A stretch of 64,000 bases of DNA from Chloroflexota bacterium (GTDB lineage: Bacteria; Chloroflexota; UBA11872; VXNJ01), in NCBI GenBank assembly GCA_026707405.1, contig JAPOWW010000003.1:1-64000 (forward strand). The letters run 5' to 3'. Position 1 is the stretch's first letter. The number at the start of each line of letters is the position of its first letter. Below the pieces are notes generated by a model. The model made no database searches, was not told where the DNA came from, and was given only the letters and a program-made list of their open reading frames with translations. The position numbers were made by a program, and so were the translations under genes. Positions 18,142 to 26,181 of the stretch are shown in pieces.

Positions 18142-19098
18142 TTACTCGTATTCCTTGGTCAGATCGGTCAGTTCGTCAATATGAACCAGTGCCCCTGGCG
18201 GCAGACAAATCCAGGTAGACCAGAGGTGGTCGTCACACTTCATGGGCCATACTTCCCATTCATCGCTGAGGGTTTCGACCACAAAAATCTCATCCGGCGA
18301 GTCGGTTCGGTCCTTCAGGAGAGGTGCAAGCTGCTCCGCTACGGCACCGGCGTCCGTCAAGATATCTTCAGCCTCCAACACCAGCACGGTTCGTGCCCCT
18401 TCCTCCTTGCAGAGTTGAAGTTTGGGGCATTTGCGATCAAGGTCTCGCCGAAGCGACTCGTAGCGCAGTTGTTCCAGATTCTCAGGTGGAACACGCGCAA
18501 TTTTCAGGACACCGTAATCGCACGGTGAGAGAGATGAATGCGCCCGACGAAGCAACGTAACCTCGAATGGGAAGCCAGGCGGTACTCCGCGGTGGCAGGA
18601 TAGTCCCTGCGGAGGATCATCCGTGGCCCCATCGTGGAGCCGCTGTGCATTCTCACGCACCCATGCTACGAGATCCCTTCGCTTCTCACTTAACTCCCCC
18701 GTCAGGACACCGAGATGAGTATTAGTCGGCAAAACGAGGCGGTATCTTGCTGATCCCGGTAATGCTCCAGAAACCTCGCTCTCAACGGACTCGATAAGCT
18801 CATTGAACTGAGCGTCCGAACGGACTCGCTCCCGAAACGGCTGAATCTGCGTATGTTCGAGCGCATACTCACGCGAACCGAGTCGGAGGCATAAATCCAC
18901 GGTTCGAGGATCACTATGGTCTTGCTCGGGGCGTCGAACGTCTCTGCGATTCTCGCCGTCGCGCTGTTCGATTAGCCTCACAACTGCGTCGAGCGTTTTC
19001 CCCTCGTTGCTCACCGTGCCCACGACCTCATGCCGCTCTGAAATCCACCGTGTTGTCCGTTTGACGAGTGTATGAAGCAATCCTACTTCTCGACCCAC
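18142..19098 (-). CDS. Hypothetical protein, 318 aa, accessory-looking
   Basis: No family recognised. Soluble, no signal or membrane helix. The middle (residues ~85-160) has a long charged helix and the segment YRLVLPTNTHLGVLTG; residues ~235-270 contain ARTVLVLEAEDI followed by FVVETLSDEWEVWP, which reads like alternating strands and helices. Start is GTG 19098. Its base composition is visibly lower in GC than the flanking genes and it sits alone just downstream of tRNA-fMet, so it may have been acquired. A plus-strand frame at 18040-18528 over the same DNA lacks any family likeness and is taken as a shadow. Confidence 0.65.
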   Translation of the reverse strand: MGREVGLLHTLVKRTTRWISERHEVVGTVSNEGKTLDAVVRLIEQRDGENRRDVRRPEQDHSDPRTVDLCLRLGSREYALEHTQIQPFRERVRSDAQFNELIESVESEVSGALPGSARYRLVLPTNTHLGVLTGELSEKRRDLVAWVRENAQRLHDGATDDPPQGLSCHRGVPPGFPFEVTLLRRAHSSLSPCDYGVLKIARVPPENLEQLRYESLRRDLDRKCPKLQLCKEEGARTVLVLEAEDILTDAGAVAEQLAPLLKDRTDSPDEIFVVETLSDEWEVWPMKCDDHLWSTWICLPPGALVHIDELTDLTKEYE

Positions 19099-20286: not shown

Positions 20287-20359
20287 GCCCCCATCGTCTA
20301 GAGGCCTAGGACAGCACCCTTTCAAGGTGCAGACAGGGATTCGAATTCCCTTGGGGGCG
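20287..20359 (+). tRNA. tRNA-Glu (TTC)
   Basis: Acceptor GCCCCCA/TGGGGGC with discriminator G, anticodon loop CTTTCAA (TTC) on the stem CACC/GGTG, and T-loop ATTCGAAT-like. The CCA end is not encoded, so it must be added by the CCA-adding enzyme encoded at 30020. Confidence 0.95.
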
Positions 20360-20427
20360 CCCCGAAAGAGCCTAAAATCAACCATGGCCGAACAAATTCA
20401 ATGCGCATCGCGCGGCAGCCGACCTAA

Positions 20428-20835
20428 GTGACGACCGTCTATAAAGCTCGTCGCCTGCTGGCCGGTCTGGCTGTGGTCGCGGTCCTTGCGCCGGCCATCG
20501 TCGCCTTCATCGCCGTGCAAATAGGTGTGCACACGCCATCCGGCCACCTCCATCACCGCCACGTCCACTTCGCCCCCGATGCAAGCGGGTCGCCGGAAAC
20601 AGCCCATGCGGCGCATAACCACGAGTCTGCGCCCTACTCCAGCAGTCAAGACAAACAGTCAGGCGAGATCCCCGGATTTGGGTTGGGGCTGTTCGCGCTT
20701 GCGCCTTACGCGATTTTGATAGCCGCCGTATTCGTGTTCGCGGGCAATCTCACCCTCCGCAGCCGTTCGAGCTACAGACTCACGCTTCCGCTTCCGCATC
20801 CACCGCCTCGGGCCCAGCCAATCTCCAACACTTAA
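20428..20835 (+). CDS. Small membrane protein with His-rich extracytoplasmic loop
   Basis: 135 aa. Two hydrophobic helices (about residues 10-32 and 90-110) flank a loop with eleven or so histidines, including GHLHHRHVHF and AHAAHNHE. That suggests metal binding on the outer face of the membrane. No named family recognised. The start is GTG 20428. It is followed on the same strand by a secreted His-rich protein, a CopC-CopD-cytochrome fusion and a small single-helix protein, so it is probably part of a copper-handling set. Confidence 0.65.
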   Translation: MTTVYKARRLLAGLAVVAVLAPAIVAFIAVQIGVHTPSGHLHHRHVHFAPDASGSPETAHAAHNHESAPYSSSQDKQSGEIPGFGLGLFALAPYAILIAAVFVFAGNLTLRSRSSYRLTLPLPHPPPRAQPISNT

Positions 20836-20946
20836 CGGCCGCGGCCATCCGTCGCAAGGCGGCGGCTCCGGTCTTGTGACGACCCCCACTTGTCGGGAGG
20901 CCGTCACCGAAACTCAATCCAGTTATTCAGGAGGTTTTATCCACCA

Positions 20947-22029
20947 ATGAGTGTCTTGCACTCGAAACGGCCTATGTTGCTGGCAGTCGTCCTGCTGGCG
21001 ACTCTGGCAATTGCTCCGGCGGCCCTCGCCCATGAGGGCCGGGAAGTAGGCGAGATCGACTTCGTCGTTGGATTCGCCGAAGAACCGGCGCTCGAAGGCC
21101 AGCCCAACGCAGTCTTTCTGCGAGTGACGGAAAAAGGCGGCCAGGACATGTCGGACGGTCACGCCGACGACTCCCACGAAGACGCGCACGACGCCCAGAT
21201 AGCCGCCGAGGGTCACATGAGCGTCTCCATCAGCTTGGAGCAGGACGCACTGACGGGCGCCAACTTGACCATCGTCACCGACGGCTTCATCTTCACGGCG
21301 GAGAACGTCAACAAGCCGCACGTATCCGGCGAAGGACACGCTCACGTCTACGTCAACGGGATCAAGGTCGGCAGGCTCTACGGACCGTCCATTCACCTGG
21401 ACAAGATGAAGGCCGGTATGAACGAGGTCCGCGTCACCCTCAACGCCAACACCCACGAGGAATACACCTGGAATGGCCAGCCAGTCACAGCCACGGCCAC
21501 CATCCACGTCGAGAAGGGCGGAGAGGGGTACGGCGAGCCTGAAGGCATGTCGATGGCCGGAGACGAGGGCGGCCACGTGGTGGCGGTCCCCGTCGAGGGA
21601 CTGGAGAGTTCGCTCCAGGTCGAGGTCACGCATCTTGCCTCCAACAGCTCGACCACCCTTCAGCTCACCCCCAAATTCGGCGAGCCGGGGTCCTACGAGG
21701 CGGTCTTGATCCCGACCGCGCCCGGCAAGTACCGCTTCAGGTTCTTCGGCGAAATCATGGGTCAGCCGGTCGACGAGGCGTTCGAGTCGGGCGAAGGCAC
21801 GTTCGACGAAGTCGTGGCCGCCGCGGACGTCCAGTTTCCGTTGAAGGTCGCCTCGCTTAGAGAGCTGGAAGGCGTAACCCGCTCGGCTCAGGCCGCCGCG
21901 GTCAGCGCCGGCGACGACGCGTCGCTGGCGAGCACGCTCGCGATCGTCGGGATCGTCGTCGGAGCGATTGGCACCGTCGCGGGCGCGGCGGGACTGGCCG
22001 CCGCAGTGCGTACCCGGTCTCGCGGCTGA
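20947..22029 (+). CDS. Secreted His-rich protein with C-terminal anchor, copper-set member
   Basis: 360 aa from ATG 20947, preceded by AGGAGGT; longer frames lack this site. Signal peptide (about residues 8-30, ending ALAHEGRE), an acidic His-rich stretch (DGHADDSHEDAHDAQ, about 75-90), then a beta domain with GEGHAHVYVNGIKVGRL and VTLNANTHEEY. A second immunoglobulin-like domain at ~195-275 ends in GKYRFRFFGEIMGQPVDE. A C-terminal transmembrane helix (about 325-350) carries a short basic tail. I do not know a firm family name. The His at the mature N-terminus and the CopC-CopD neighbour 27 bp downstream point to copper binding. Confidence 0.75.
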   Translation: MSVLHSKRPMLLAVVLLATLAIAPAALAHEGREVGEIDFVVGFAEEPALEGQPNAVFLRVTEKGGQDMSDGHADDSHEDAHDAQIAAEGHMSVSISLEQDALTGANLTIVTDGFIFTAENVNKPHVSGEGHAHVYVNGIKVGRLYGPSIHLDKMKAGMNEVRVTLNANTHEEYTWNGQPVTATATIHVEKGGEGYGEPEGMSMAGDEGGHVVAVPVEGLESSLQVEVTHLASNSSTTLQLTPKFGEPGSYEAVLIPTAPGKYRFRFFGEIMGQPVDEAFESGEGTFDEVVAAADVQFPLKVASLRELEGVTRSAQAAAVSAGDDASLASTLAIVGIVVGAIGTVAGAAGLAAAVRTRSRG

Positions 22030-22056
22030 TCGGAAGGCCCTTGTGAGAGGTCGGTC

Positions 22057-24261
22057 ATGAAGGCGGTTGTCCGCCCGGCGTGCGCCGCCGTGGCGGCCGT
22101 TGTTGCATTGCTTTTGGCGTGGGCGTCGGCGGGCGCCCACGCCAATCTACTCAACGCCTTCCCCGGTCCGGGCGAGGTCCTGGAGCGGCCCACCGACACC
22201 GTCTACATCGAGTTCTCCGAGACTCTGGTGGAATCGTTCAGCAGCATCGACGTGCTCGACGCCAGCGGCGTTAGCGTCATCGCCGCCCCGAGCGAGGTCG
22301 ATCCCGCCAATCCGATCGCCATGCGGGTAACCCTGAACGACCTGCCCAACGGCACTTATGTCGTCGTCTGGCGAACTCTCTCCACCGTCGACGGCCATCT
22401 CATCAGGGGATCGTATCTGTTCAGCGTCGGCGATCCGATCCGGCAGATCGAGCAGCCCGCCGAGACCCCGTCGGATACGTCGCCGGCGGAAGCGCCGCTG
22501 CGATGGCTGTTGCTGATCGGCGCGGTCCTGCTCGTCGGAGTCCCCGTGCACTTCGTGGCGGTGTCGGGACTCCGCGCCGTGGAGCTTGGAGGACCTGGAA
22601 GGGCAACTCTGGTGTGGTCTGGGGTGGGAAGCCTGTCCATCGCTCAGCTTGGACTCCTGGCCGTTCAGGCGGCCACGCTCGCCGAAGGAGGACCGCTCGA
22701 CTGGATAAGCACGGGCATCCCGCGGGCATTCGAGCTCGGGCTTTGGGGCCGTCTCTGGGTTTCACGGCTAATTCTGCTCGGCGCGTGGGTGGTCATCACC
22801 CTGGCGGCCATTCGAGGCACTGGCCGCGGCGCGCGATGGGCTTGGATCGGCGCCGCGGTCGTCGGCGCCGAGATCATTCTGACGGTCTCGCTAGGCAGTC
22901 ACAGCGCCGCGCTGGTCGACTTTTCGATAAGGGGAGTAGCGCTCGATTTCGGCCACCTGCTGGCGGCGGCTCTATGGGTCGGCGGTCTGCCCGCGCTGCT
23001 GTTCACGGTTCGCGGCGCGCGCCGGATCAAGTCGTTGGGCGAGCGCCGCCGGGCGATTGTCCGGATCGTCGAGCGTTTCTCCGCGCTGGCCTCGATATCC
23101 GTCGCCGTGATCATCTTCACCGGACTGCTCAGCGCTTGGCTTCACGTCGTCGAGCCGGGCCGTCTGCTCTCCACCGCATACGGTCGCACGCTCCTCGTCA
23201 AGATCGGTCTCGTATCTCCCCTGCTGTTGATGGGAGCGGTGAATCTGACCTGGGTGCGCCGCCGGCTCCGAACGCCGGCTGATGGTGAGTTGGATCGGTC
23301 GCTGGCGTGGCTCGTCAAGATCGTGCGAGTCGAAGCCGTGTTTGCCGCCGGCATCCTGCTTGCGTCGGGCTTCCTCACGACGTTGGAACCGGGCAGGCAG
23401 GTTGCATTGCGCGGTGACCAGGGAGTTCGGGCCGAGGCCGGGGTGGACGATCTCGATCTCAAGCTCAGACTCACTCCCGGCGTACCCGGTAACAACCGGC
23501 TTGAGGTGACCACCCATTCCTCCCGCGGTCCGCTGCCGCCGGGCTCCTCGGTCGAGCTTAGGGTCAAGTCTCTTGATCGCGATATCGGTTCGGAGCGCGT
23601 CGTCCTCGAATACGAGGGAGAGGACGTATTCGCTGCCGAGACCGACGCCATTGGAATCGCCGGCGGCTGGCAGGCGGACTTTCTGATTCAGAGGCCCGGG
23701 GAGTTCGATTCCCGCACGGCGGTTCGCTTTGAAGTCGCCGCGGCGGCGGGCGCCCGGTCGGGCGTGCGGCCCGACCCCGTACTGCGGGACATATTCTTTG
23801 CCCTGGTGCTCACGGCGATTGGGATCGCCATCCTCGTGACCGGCTTGAGACATCGCGGTTTCACTCGGGACGGAGGCCTTCGGGTTGGCGGTGCCGGGGT
23901 TCTCGGCGCGGCCGTCGGTCTGGCGATTCTGTTCCCGGCGTTCCTGCGCGTCGGACCGGCCGTGCCGGAGATAAACCCCATTCTGCCCGATCCCCAGTCG
24001 ATCTCCATCGGCCGTTCTTTGTTTGCCGACAATTGTGTTAGCTGCCACGGGACCGGCGGGCGTGGCGACGGACCGCTCGCCGCGCAGCTCGATCCCCCGC
24101 CGCTCGACCTGGCCGTTCACGTGCCGCTGCATCCCGATGGCGAGCTGTTCTCGTTTATCAAATGGGGCATCGACGGGACCCCCATGGTCGGCTTCGGCGA
24201 GCAGTTCGACGACACCGAGATCTGGCACCTCGTCAACTTCCTCCAGACCATTCCACCGTGA
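22057..24261 (+). CDS. CopC-CopD fusion with C-terminal cytochrome c domain
   Basis: 734 aa. A signal peptide ends at AGA, giving mature His-1 (HANLLNAFPG). The CopC domain (~28-125) keeps the D-x-H in STVDGHLIRGSY, so the Cu(II) site of His, Asp and His looks complete. A CopD-type membrane domain follows (~145-445, about eight helices), then a beta domain (~460-580, a YtkA-like region facing outside), two more helices and a terminal monohaem cytochrome c (CVSCHGTGGRGDGPLA near residue 660; possible distal Met in GTPMVGFG). CopC/CopD handle copper transfer or uptake; the added haem domain suggests coupling to electron transfer. ATG 22057 starts 27 bp after the preceding gene. Confidence 0.88.
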   Translation: MKAVVRPACAAVAAVVALLLAWASAGAHANLLNAFPGPGEVLERPTDTVYIEFSETLVESFSSIDVLDASGVSVIAAPSEVDPANPIAMRVTLNDLPNGTYVVVWRTLSTVDGHLIRGSYLFSVGDPIRQIEQPAETPSDTSPAEAPLRWLLLIGAVLLVGVPVHFVAVSGLRAVELGGPGRATLVWSGVGSLSIAQLGLLAVQAATLAEGGPLDWISTGIPRAFELGLWGRLWVSRLILLGAWVVITLAAIRGTGRGARWAWIGAAVVGAEIILTVSLGSHSAALVDFSIRGVALDFGHLLAAALWVGGLPALLFTVRGARRIKSLGERRRAIVRIVERFSALASISVAVIIFTGLLSAWLHVVEPGRLLSTAYGRTLLVKIGLVSPLLLMGAVNLTWVRRRLRTPADGELDRSLAWLVKIVRVEAVFAAGILLASGFLTTLEPGRQVALRGDQGVRAEAGVDDLDLKLRLTPGVPGNNRLEVTTHSSRGPLPPGSSVELRVKSLDRDIGSERVVLEYEGEDVFAAETDAIGIAGGWQADFLIQRPGEFDSRTAVRFEVAAAAGARSGVRPDPVLRDIFFALVLTAIGIAILVTGLRHRGFTRDGGLRVGGAGVLGAAVGLAILFPAFLRVGPAVPEINPILPDPQSISIGRSLFADNCVSCHGTGGRGDGPLAAQLDPPPLDLAVHVPLHPDGELFSFIKWGIDGTPMVGFGEQFDDTEIWHLVNFLQTIPP

Positions 24262-24357
24262 TGATCGCCGCCGGACACTGGGGCGTATGATCGTTGTAAT
24301 CGGGGGACTCAGGTCAAACGAGCGGGCTTTGCCCTCAATCGGGTCTGGAGATCAGGT

Positions 24358-24594
24358 GTGAGACCGCGACTGCGTTCGTTTGTAAGAGCTGCGGCGCTGC
24401 TGGTGAGCTTGGTCGCGTGGGCGACGGTCCCGCAATCCGCCCTCGCTCACGGCATCCACATCGCCGGCAGCCAGAACGAGATCATCGCCCTCCTGATTCC
24501 CGTTCTCATATTCGTCATCGTCACGGGGGGCGGCGTGCTCCTGGTTCATCTTTACTTCAGACGCGACCCCCGGACCGAGGAGGACGAGCTCTAG
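24358..24594 (+). CDS. Small membrane protein, 78 aa
   Basis: Signal peptide (about residues 8-30, ending SALAHG) followed directly by a His-containing start, HGIHIAGS, and one transmembrane helix (about 40-62) with a charged cytoplasmic tail RRDPRTEEDEL. Start GTG 24358 with GGAG eight bases upstream. No family recognised. Last member of the copper-type set, 96 bp after the fusion gene. Confidence 0.6.
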   Translation: MRPRLRSFVRAAALLVSLVAWATVPQSALAHGIHIAGSQNEIIALLIPVLIFVIVTGGGVLLVHLYFRRDPRTEEDEL

Positions 24595-24611: not shown

Positions 24612-24670
24612 CGTCATCCCGGCCCGGATTCCAGTTTCCCATCCGTCATTCCGGCGCAGGCCGGAATCCA
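24612..24670. repeat. Two family A palindromic repeats, variant arms
   Basis: A degraded copy (24612-24633) and a full one (24644-24670) with arms TTCCGGC and GCCGGAA instead of TTCCCGC/GCGGGAA. They lie in the convergent gap after the 78-aa gene. Confidence 0.8.
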
Positions 24671-24696: not shown

Positions 24697-25635
24697 CTAG
24701 CCGGCCGCACTCCGCTCGAGCTGGTCCAGCGCCTTGTAGGAGCGCACCATTTCTCTTGCTGAGGTTGACGGCTCACGGCCTTCTTGCACCGCCTCGATGA
24801 ACTCGCGATTCTGTCTCGGAATGGCGTCCTCGTTCGATTCGTTCGCCAGTTCGTTGCCGTCCTTGTCGATCAGCCGCCCGTCCACGAACGTCAGGAAATC
24901 CTCTTCCCCGACGAACGTGATTCGCTGCGTCACTTTGGGGACCATCGCGTTATAGGAGAGCATCAACGTCGCCAGTCCCCCGCCCGGAAATCGAAGCTGG
25001 GCCGAAAGGTCCAATGGAACGCCCAACGACTCGCTCAGCGGCCCGAAGTGCGCCCTCGCCGAGTCCGGCGCCTCTCCGAAGAGCCAGATCGAGTGGTCGA
25101 CCACGTGCCCGCCGTGATGCCACAGGATGCTGTCCGTCCAGCTTCGCAGCCGCCCTTTCCAGTTGATGTTCTCTCGCCGGAAGAAGTGCCACTCGACGTG
25201 GTAGTGATGGAGCTTGAACTCTCCCGCGTCGATCCGGCGCTTGACTTCACTGCTGGCCGCCCAGAAGCGCTGGGTGTGGCAGATCATCACCGTAAGGTCC
25301 TTTTCGTCGGCCAGGTCGGCGATGGCGGTCGCCTCTGCCACGGACAGGCCCATCGGAATCTCTAGCAAAACGTGCTTCCCGGCGTTCAATGCCGCGACGG
25401 TCTGCTCGTAGTGCGCCTGGCTGGGTGAAGTGATGAGCACCGCGTCCAGTCCCGGCCTGTCGAGCGCCTCCTGAAGATCGGTCGTGGCCAGCGAAGCGCC
25501 GCAGCTTTCGGCGAATTGCTGGGTAGGTTCCAGCAGCCGGCCCATGACCGAATCGATCGAAACGCCGTCCATCTGCATCAGCGCGTCCCGGTGAAATCCT
25601 GCGATGCTTCCGTATCCGACCATGCAAAACTTCAC
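24697..25635 (-). CDS. Gfo/Idh/MocA family protein with altered EKP motif
   Basis: 312 aa. N-terminal Rossmann domain (MVGYGSIAGFH) and the family's C-terminal domain (WHHGGHVVDHSIWLFG, with the conserved His). Where the family has E-K-P, with Lys as catalytic residue, this protein reads LLEIPMGLS (about residue 97): Lys is replaced by Ile. Some family members acting on hydrated aldehydes or sugar acids also depart from EKP, so it need not be inactive. Start GTG 25635. Divergent from the nitrile-hydratase-like gene. Confidence 0.83.
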   Translation of the reverse strand: MKFCMVGYGSIAGFHRDALMQMDGVSIDSVMGRLLEPTQQFAESCGASLATTDLQEALDRPGLDAVLITSPSQAHYEQTVAALNAGKHVLLEIPMGLSVAEATAIADLADEKDLTVMICHTQRFWAASSEVKRRIDAGEFKLHHYHVEWHFFRRENINWKGRLRSWTDSILWHHGGHVVDHSIWLFGEAPDSARAHFGPLSESLGVPLDLSAQLRFPGGGLATLMLSYNAMVPKVTQRITFVGEEDFLTFVDGRLIDKDGNELANESNEDAIPRQNREFIEAVQEGREPSTSAREMVRSYKALDQLERSAAG

Positions 25636-25719
25636 TGTTGGATCCTTTCCCCCCGCCGGCGTTCGTGTAATCTCAGATTGGCGAAGGCGAGTCTACGCAT
25701 ATTAGACAGGTGCAATGGT

Positions 25720-26181
25720 TTGAGCGAAAAGAACCCAATCGAAAAGGCCGTGCAGGTTGTAGTTGCGGCGTGGTCCGACCCGGCCTTCAAATCGGAGCTG
25801 CTCGCGGATCCCAGGCGGGCGCTCGCCGGGCTGGGAATCGAGATTCCGCAAGGAATCGACCTTGACGTGCGCGACAACGATGGCGATGTTCACCACGTAA
25901 TCGTCTGCACGCAATGCTCCTGCTGGCCAACTTTCTTGTCCCCCATGCCTCCGTTCTGGAAGAACTCGGAGTACATAGCCCGCGTGGTCGCCGATCCTCG
26001 GACCGCCCTGATTGAGATGGGTCTGACGCTCGACCCCGACGAGCCGGTGAACGTCGTCGACACCACGCCTCGCCGCCGGGCGATGGTGATCCCAAGACGG
26101 CCGTCGGCTAGTGAAGGTCAAACCGCCGCCGCCCTGGCGCCTTACGTCAACAACCTGAACATCGCGGGCTACGCCAGGTAA
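25720..26181 (+). CDS. Nitrile hydratase alpha-subunit-like protein, orphan
   Basis: 153 aa from TTG 25720 (the upstream open frame is antisense to the neighbouring gene). The metal-binding loop VCTQCSCWP (about residue 60) matches the cobalt-type NHase alpha motif VCTLCSC with Leu changed to Gln; the three Cys and the Ser are kept. Downstream MPPFWKNSEYIARVVADPRTAL matches the family's conserved block. The usual N-terminal ~40 residues are missing and there is no beta-subunit or activator gene nearby. It could be a thiocyanate-hydrolase- or NHase-like enzyme working with a distant partner, or a family offshoot with another role. Confidence 0.8.
   Translation: MSEKNPIEKAVQVVVAAWSDPAFKSELLADPRRALAGLGIEIPQGIDLDVRDNDGDVHHVIVCTQCSCWPTFLSPMPPFWKNSEYIARVVADPRTALIEMGLTLDPDEPVNVVDTTPRRRAMVIPRRPSASEGQTAAALAPYVNNLNIAGYAR

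Follow-up and report, generated by a model that had tools for sequence, protein, structure and literature searches.

What does a locus do in which a CopC–CopD–cytochrome c fusion is surrounded by genes of no described family? The four ORFs concerned, o1–o4, lie in the window, by which we mean the whole 64,000-nucleotide stretch of Chloroflexota DNA analysed here, and an earlier note made from the letters alone had read them as a membrane relay for copper, possibly feeding cytochrome oxidase. Our own reading, which we hold with moderate confidence, is that the locus is one operon for extracellular copper acquisition, organised like YcnI/YcnJ of Bacillus subtilis and with o1 as its leader. All four ORFs, with the features described for them in the note, are found on the + strand:

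20428–20835, + strand: o1, GTG start, 135 aa (ORF call)
20947–22029, + strand: o2, ATG start behind GGAGG (best start choice)
22057–24261, + strand: o3, 734 aa (ORF call and Pfam)
24358–24594, + strand: o4, GTG start, 78 residues (ORF call)

A tRNA-Glu gene (20287–20361) lies ahead of the four ORFs. A riboswitch search of the module region returned tRNA only, and neither a sigma-70 promoter scan nor a comparison with PHROGs gave a match. Codon-level comparison with the sister genome G001 yields dN/dS values of 0.20 for o1, 0.14 for o2, 0.13 for o3 and 0.12 for o4, which marks all four as genuine genes, the 78-residue o4 included. In o2 (ALA|HEGRE), o3 (AGA|HANLL) and o4 (ALA|HGIHIAG) an A-x-A junction immediately precedes a histidine, so that His is probably residue 1 of each of these mature proteins. 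The arrangement is recurrent as well: o1, o2 and o3 are also adjacent in the neighbouring family f2, o2 stands beside a CopC/CopD gene throughout the phylum, and relatives of o4 are found beside o2/o3. Since relatives of all four genes co-occur across Chloroflexota, we regard the locus as a module and not as a set of chance neighbours. The earlier note had staked its module on the small genes being conserved together with the fusion, and the neighbourhood check bears this out, with o1-like genes, o2 and o4 relatives accompanying the o3 type.

The recognisable parts of the module reside in o3, which has Pfam matches to CopC, CopD and cytochrome c and comprises the following domains:

22138–22428, + strand: CopC domain of o3 (PF04234, 60 bits; brace residues H28, at the mature N-terminus, D112 and H114)
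22498–23391, + strand: CopD membrane domain of o3 (PF05425, 70 bits; H282 and H300 invariant)
23425–23736, + strand: Ig/YtkA-like beta domain of o3 (eight strands in the AlphaFold model)
23989–24258, + strand: monohaem cytochrome c domain of o3 (CVSCH at residues 660–664; Met710 the likely sixth ligand)

All four hits are kept in 17 of 17 o3 relatives. YtkA (PF13115) has no match in the window's o3, where an eight-strand domain is modelled, and is matched additionally in 5 of the 17 relatives, between CopD and cytochrome, and in locus L203. The AlphaFold model of o3 (pLDDT 74) consists of a CopC barrel, a helical CopD part, the eight-strand domain (residues 457–560), two more helices and the cytochrome domain. 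Residues H28, D112, H114, H282 and H300 are invariant in 17 o3 homologues and align with residues of E. coli YobA/YebZ, H282 and H300 corresponding to the YebZ histidines, and C660, C663, H664 and M710 are invariant in the o3 alignment (A3). Among PDB sequence matches of o3 is the CopC domain of YcnJ (9c14); a profile search matches the third domain weakly to 'copper resistance protein' 9ll2 (E 0.002), and this domain searched alone against the PDB gave nothing useful. The CopC site is of the C0-1 type, the YcnJ kind. Judged by its sequence, o3 is a candidate copper importer of the YcnJ type, with the architecture of B. subtilis YcnJ and a haem domain added to it. Three loci (L203, L206 and L215) encode the cytochrome on its own, downstream of an o4-like gene, which indicates that a haem protein is part of the module even where it is unfused.

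The closest known system is B. subtilis YcnKJI, in which YcnJ is a CopC–CopD–YtkA protein and YcnI a DUF1775 protein. Cu(II) passes between YcnI and YcnJ, and under copper limitation B. subtilis requires H24 of CopC and H295 of CopD in vivo (PMC12154828, PMC13344008). Shared with it are the CopC–CopD fusion with its Cu(II)-brace residues, a partner encoded next door that has a mature N-terminal His and a C-terminal membrane anchor (o2), and, in some of the o3 relatives, a YtkA-like third domain. The module differs in that o3 carries a cytochrome c domain, in the additional mini-protein o4, in that o2 belongs to a different, undescribed family, and in that no YcnK regulator is seen, the leader ORF o1 being present instead. 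E. coli YobA–YebZ–YebY shares the CopC and CopD families, with aligned brace residues and CopD histidines, but there CopC and CopD are separate genes and there is neither a cytochrome nor an o2 or o4. Taken together, the CopC brace residues, the CopD domain, the YtkA-like domain of relatives and the nature of the partners support an assignment of the module to copper, as far as sequence can tell. Of the copper relay put forward in the earlier note the copper part is supported, its recognisable components being of copper type, whereas o1 does not look like a relay protein (see below).

In protein o2 a signal peptide, with the junction A|HE, is followed by beta strands and, at the C-terminus, by a helix; its start at ATG 20947, preceded by GGAGG at 20930–20934, is likelier than an earlier TTG. 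An alignment of 24 members (A1) reveals a conserved mature His-Glu pair (H29-E30, invariant), the motif G..EP and a conserved strand region around 'IPT.PG.Y'. No Pfam family scores above its cut-off and no NCBIfam family matches. The middle of the protein is replaceable:

21145–21522, + strand: inserted 'GEGHAHVYVNG' domain of o2, between the two halves of the beta core (from the alignment)

This domain occurs once in the window's o2, twice in genus g6 and is absent in many relatives, those of g5 carrying a different His-containing insert instead. We also observed it apart from the o2 core, as part of a lipoprotein-like gene (L125:9293–10165) of G002, a genome of the same family. The core of the o2 model is predicted with a pLDDT of about 90. 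A Foldseek search of the model gave no match at E <= 0.001 and returned Ig-like folds, including CopC 5icu (TM 0.55 by target length, rank 26), the matches being weak because the insert is modelled poorly. Of 251 Chloroflexota genomes sampled, 69 contain the o2 family. When 84,980 species genomes were scanned, 65 o2 loci emerged, with a single exception under titles of Chloroflexota groups; in most of these loci a CopC/CopD gene follows o2 directly. The same position is taken by DUF1775 in six Chloroflexota genomes (those with the next gene visible), where CopC or CopD follows it directly, and DUF1775 is absent from 24 of 24 genomes of the window's order. An identification of o2 with DUF1775/YcnI itself was rejected: none of the 24 members matches PF07987, the hhalign profile probability is 0.4%, and alignment A1 contains no invariant or nearly invariant Trp, so that the copper-site Trp of YcnI is missing. 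Homology of o2 to a domain of o3 was likewise discarded, hhalign finding only helix. Since o2 fails the DUF1775 tests and yet has the mature N-terminal His, the C-terminal membrane helix and the CopC/CopD neighbour of YcnI, it is YcnI-like in plan and position but not YcnI, and we propose it as a YcnI substitute with no detectable homology to YcnI.

The last member, o4, has a signal peptide, a mature HGIHIAG...NEII start and one helix. A single-sequence search retrieved the sister genome only, and the idea that o4 is a genus orphan was ruled out by motif and profile scans, which find relatives beside o2/o3 phylum-wide. Short ORFs near o2/o3 share one plan, with His, a few residues, Asp/Asn-Glu, one helix and a basic tail. 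A motif scan of 1.43 Mb gave 14 matches, all inside o2/o3 loci, and a refined scan of the 65 loci gave 17 within o2/o3 regions and none elsewhere in 704 kb. As the motif was derived from o2/o3 loci, a whole-genome profile search is the fairer test; it found the family in 16 of 251 genomes, in 11 of them beside o2/o3, in four (genus g8) beside a YtkA protein and in one alone. In most o2/o3 loci o4 goes undetected. By these sequence criteria o4 belongs to a phylum-wide family of mini-proteins that are hardly ever found away from o2/o3 or a YtkA gene. In genus g8 (L287:5621–8476) the o4-like mini-protein adjoins the YtkA protein and a ferredoxin-type (CcoG/NosR-like) membrane protein, possibly a second copper context for the family.

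We then come to o1, which starts with an export segment, continues with a His-rich loop (HTPSGHLHHRHVH) and a second hydrophobic segment, and has PPPR near its C-terminus. Its homology is detectable in the window's order only; in the 17 homologues found by homology (set A2) the pattern GH..H.H.H and PPPR are invariant. Beyond the order, conservation is limited to the His motifs and PPxR, and the second hydrophobic helix is missing from many relatives. Because the remote o1-like set was selected by a PP.R pattern, invariance of PPxR holds there by construction and set A2 alone is independent evidence for it. An o1-like ORF, with a hydrophobic start, a His cluster and PP.R near the stop, immediately precedes o2 at 34 of the 62 loci, versus 7 occurrences elsewhere in 704 kb, and another stands before DUF1775 in locus L270. 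Two families with weak profile similarity to the helix–His loop–helix plan, the mycobacterial putative copper protein LpqS and the cobalt transporter subunit CbtA, were tried and rejected, o1 scoring 17.4 bits (cut-off 35) and 15.8 bits (cut-off 30.7) respectively and no other member matching either.

The plan of o1 is that of CutF of Rhodobacter capsulatus and of CruR (DUF2946) of Bordetella, exported leaders that sense copper during their synthesis, acting via a Pro-rich C-terminus and the translation or transcription of the next gene (PMC9973294, PMC9426467). According to published rules a CutF-like protein stays below 150 aa, has PP among its final 15 residues, carries an export signal and is followed on the same strand, at less than 1000 nt, by another gene (PMC9973294). 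With 135 aa, PPPR at residues 125–128, a hydrophobic N-terminus (its export signal being judged by hydrophobicity only) and a gap of 111 nt to o2, o1 agrees with all of these. Like CutF and CruR it has metal-binding residues in its exported part, a Pro-rich C-terminus before the stop, the first position in a copper operon and a predicted hairpin over the next Shine–Dalgarno sequence. It differs in having a His-rich loop and not CxxxC or CXXC, PPxR and not RAPP, often a second hydrophobic segment, and a host from Chloroflexota, in which CutF-like proteins are reported to be scarce (PMC9973294). None of 22 o1-like proteins matches PF11162 (DUF2946), o1 being His-only, without a Cys motif or CXXC; the CutF-like proteins described as His-only in the literature stand ahead of HupE/UreJ (Ni/Co) genes. 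Some 65–110 residues separate the His loop from PPxR further on, from which we infer that the loop would be far enough from the motif to lie outside the membrane during a pause.

The likeness of o1 to CutF and CruR invites an independent test, namely whether the end of o1 pairs with the o2 Shine–Dalgarno sequence. The elements concerned are:

20800–20811, + strand: PPPR codons of o1 (residues 125–128, 7 codons ahead of the stop), the proposed arrest motif
20822–20826, + strand: UCUCC at the o1 end (Ile-Ser codons), the predicted anti-Shine–Dalgarno sequence, four codons behind PPPR
20930–20934, + strand: GGAGG, the o2 Shine–Dalgarno sequence, predicted 97% paired (3% unpaired)

In the window, partition function calculation gives a UCUCC–GGAGG pairing probability of 0.82, and the o1–o2 gap is 95% identical to that of G001 at a dS of 0.2–0.36. 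In a set of 20 loci, with each lineage represented once or twice, the o1 tail and the Shine–Dalgarno sequence are predicted to pair with a mean probability of 0.64, versus 0.11 for 161 other same-strand gene pairs taken as controls (Mann–Whitney p = 8e-6), and the duplex z against dinucleotide shuffles is −1.5 versus −0.08 (p = 3e-6), that of the window alone being only −0.7. In genus g6 the helix GCCUUGCAGUAG:CUGCGAGGUU spans the last o1 codons and the stop; all 11 sequences keep it intact, what changes there are being confined to one side. Elsewhere the Shine–Dalgarno sequence is predicted to pair, depending on the lineage, with UCC-UGA at the o1 stop or directly with the PP codons; for g5, L177, L179 and L193 no pairing of the Shine–Dalgarno sequence with the o1 tail is predicted. 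A hairpin that hides the o2 Shine–Dalgarno sequence, as in CutF-like leaders, is thus predicted, and by its analogy with these o1 is probably a His-type CutF/CruR-like regulatory leader rather than part of a relay.

The computed features, being domain make-up, conservation of ligand residues and of the module, occupation of the YcnI slot and predicted pairing, suggest a scheme in which metal identity, transfer, import, redox role, and the arrest of o1 and its direction are what we infer. Anchored outside the membrane, o2 would bind Cu(II) at its N-terminal His-Glu and its His-rich insert and hand it on to the histidine brace in the CopC domain of o3, from where it would enter the CopD membrane domain and be imported. 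The fused cytochrome c might give or take an electron near CopD, for instance in reducing Cu(II) to Cu(I), and o4 may serve as a small accessory subunit that brings a His and an acidic residue close to CopD on the outer side of the membrane. The o1 chain would be exported during its synthesis, its His loop sampling metal outside, and a ribosome held at PPPR would cover codons that otherwise pair with the o2 Shine–Dalgarno sequence. With little metal the ribosome would pause and o2–o3 be translated; metal binding would release it and let the hairpin close. This CruR-like direction is the one expected for an uptake system, and the opposite, CutF-like direction, with o2–o3 up at high metal, is the less likely one.

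That o1 is instead an ordinary two-helix metal-binding membrane protein of a relay, as the earlier note had it, with PPPR and RNA pairing incidental, we think rather unlikely. It does carry two hydrophobic segments around a His-rich loop, and its dN/dS denotes constraint at the protein level. Set against this, the second helix is absent in many relatives, only the His motifs and PPxR are conserved outside the order, the o1-like ORF always comes first and directly upstream, and the tail-to-Shine–Dalgarno pairing is enriched over control pairs; leader plan, position, and PPPR with its pairing all point to a regulatory leader. A module for another metal (Zn, Ni/Co, Mn) or for several metals, and not for copper specifically, appears improbable. 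Such a reading draws on the Ni/Co association of His-only leaders in the literature and on neighbouring genes, the operon in genus g6 facing DtxR and ABC-3 genes and loci L203 and L206 having ZnuA, ABC-3 and Fur nearby. The linkage to a different metal which the earlier note named as counting against its view is thus seen in part, in one genus and a few other loci, although these Zn/Mn-type transporters and DtxR/Fur regulators are on the opposite strand or in separate transcription units; moreover, the CopC brace residues are invariant, o2 stands beside CopC/CopD in most loci, and o4 relatives adjoin a YtkA protein too.

Assuming copper, the module could be dedicated to assembly of cytochrome c oxidase, loading CuA/CuB of an aa3 oxidase while its cytochrome c domain docks to the oxidase. 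The genome does contain CoxA/B/C and CtaA-like genes, the YtkA domain of B. subtilis YcnJ supports CuA assembly, and COX1 is present in 30 of 32 genomes with o2 versus 19 of 29 without, a weak and phylogenetically confounded association. Yet COX1, with coxB, coxC and the CtaA-like gene, lies on another contig (C18) than the module (C19), where a search for nearby cox genes found none, and two genomes with o2 and o3, G001 (84% complete) and G003 (93%), have no detectable COX1. The suggestion that the module feeds cytochrome oxidase is therefore not borne out, and we give a dedicated assembly role only a minor chance. Copper resistance, by periplasmic sequestration or Cu oxidation, seems to us improbable as well. 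CopC and CopD owe their names to resistance operons, and a c-type cytochrome could take electrons from Cu(I), but the locus has neither a CopA oxidase nor CopB, CopC has the C0-1 type of site known from YcnJ, and the best-characterised CopC–CopD fusions act in uptake. Acquisition thus stays our preferred reading. Its boldest form is a redox-coupled importer spread through the phylum, unlike any characterised one, in which three undescribed families work together with the CopC–CopD–cytochrome fusion. Electron transfer through the haem would drive both the reduction of Cu(II) and its import, and a nascent-chain sensor of external Cu(II), relying on His alone, would switch the system, its arrest site freeing the next Shine–Dalgarno sequence; this we advance as speculative. 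Three protein families without a Pfam model gain testable roles here, the role of YcnI beside CopC/CopD may be filled by unrelated proteins, nascent-chain metal sensing would extend to leaders of a His-only kind and to a phylum from which they had been reported as scarce, and the cytochrome fusion offers a concrete way to ask if Cu(II) passing through CopD is reduced during bacterial copper uptake, and at which point.

Several further observations were made in the window and its relatives. Beside the operon of genus g6 (L168:9550–11003) are two convergent genes without Pfam match. The product of one is secreted and tail-anchored, with mature HGGDLVY; that of the other resembles a lipoprotein and contains HVHADGAVHVHD as well as the motif CTSAMC. 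Divergent from o2 in L203 (4100–5017), and also in L206, L224 and L215, is a gene whose multi-helix product is rich in His and contains HGFDWDH, a motif like that of Ni/Co transporters; the sole Pfam match of this protein is a sub-threshold one to DsbD. The window further contains a 318-aa ORF without Pfam match (18142–19098, − strand) and a nitrile hydratase alpha-chain-like ORF (25516–26181; PF02979, 131 bits) with a CTQCSC metal motif and no beta-chain gene seen beside it. Finally, a palindromic repeat, GTCATTCCNGCG..GCNGGAATCC, occurs in nine copies on one strand of the window, with none expected, one copy (24645–24669) lying just behind o4.
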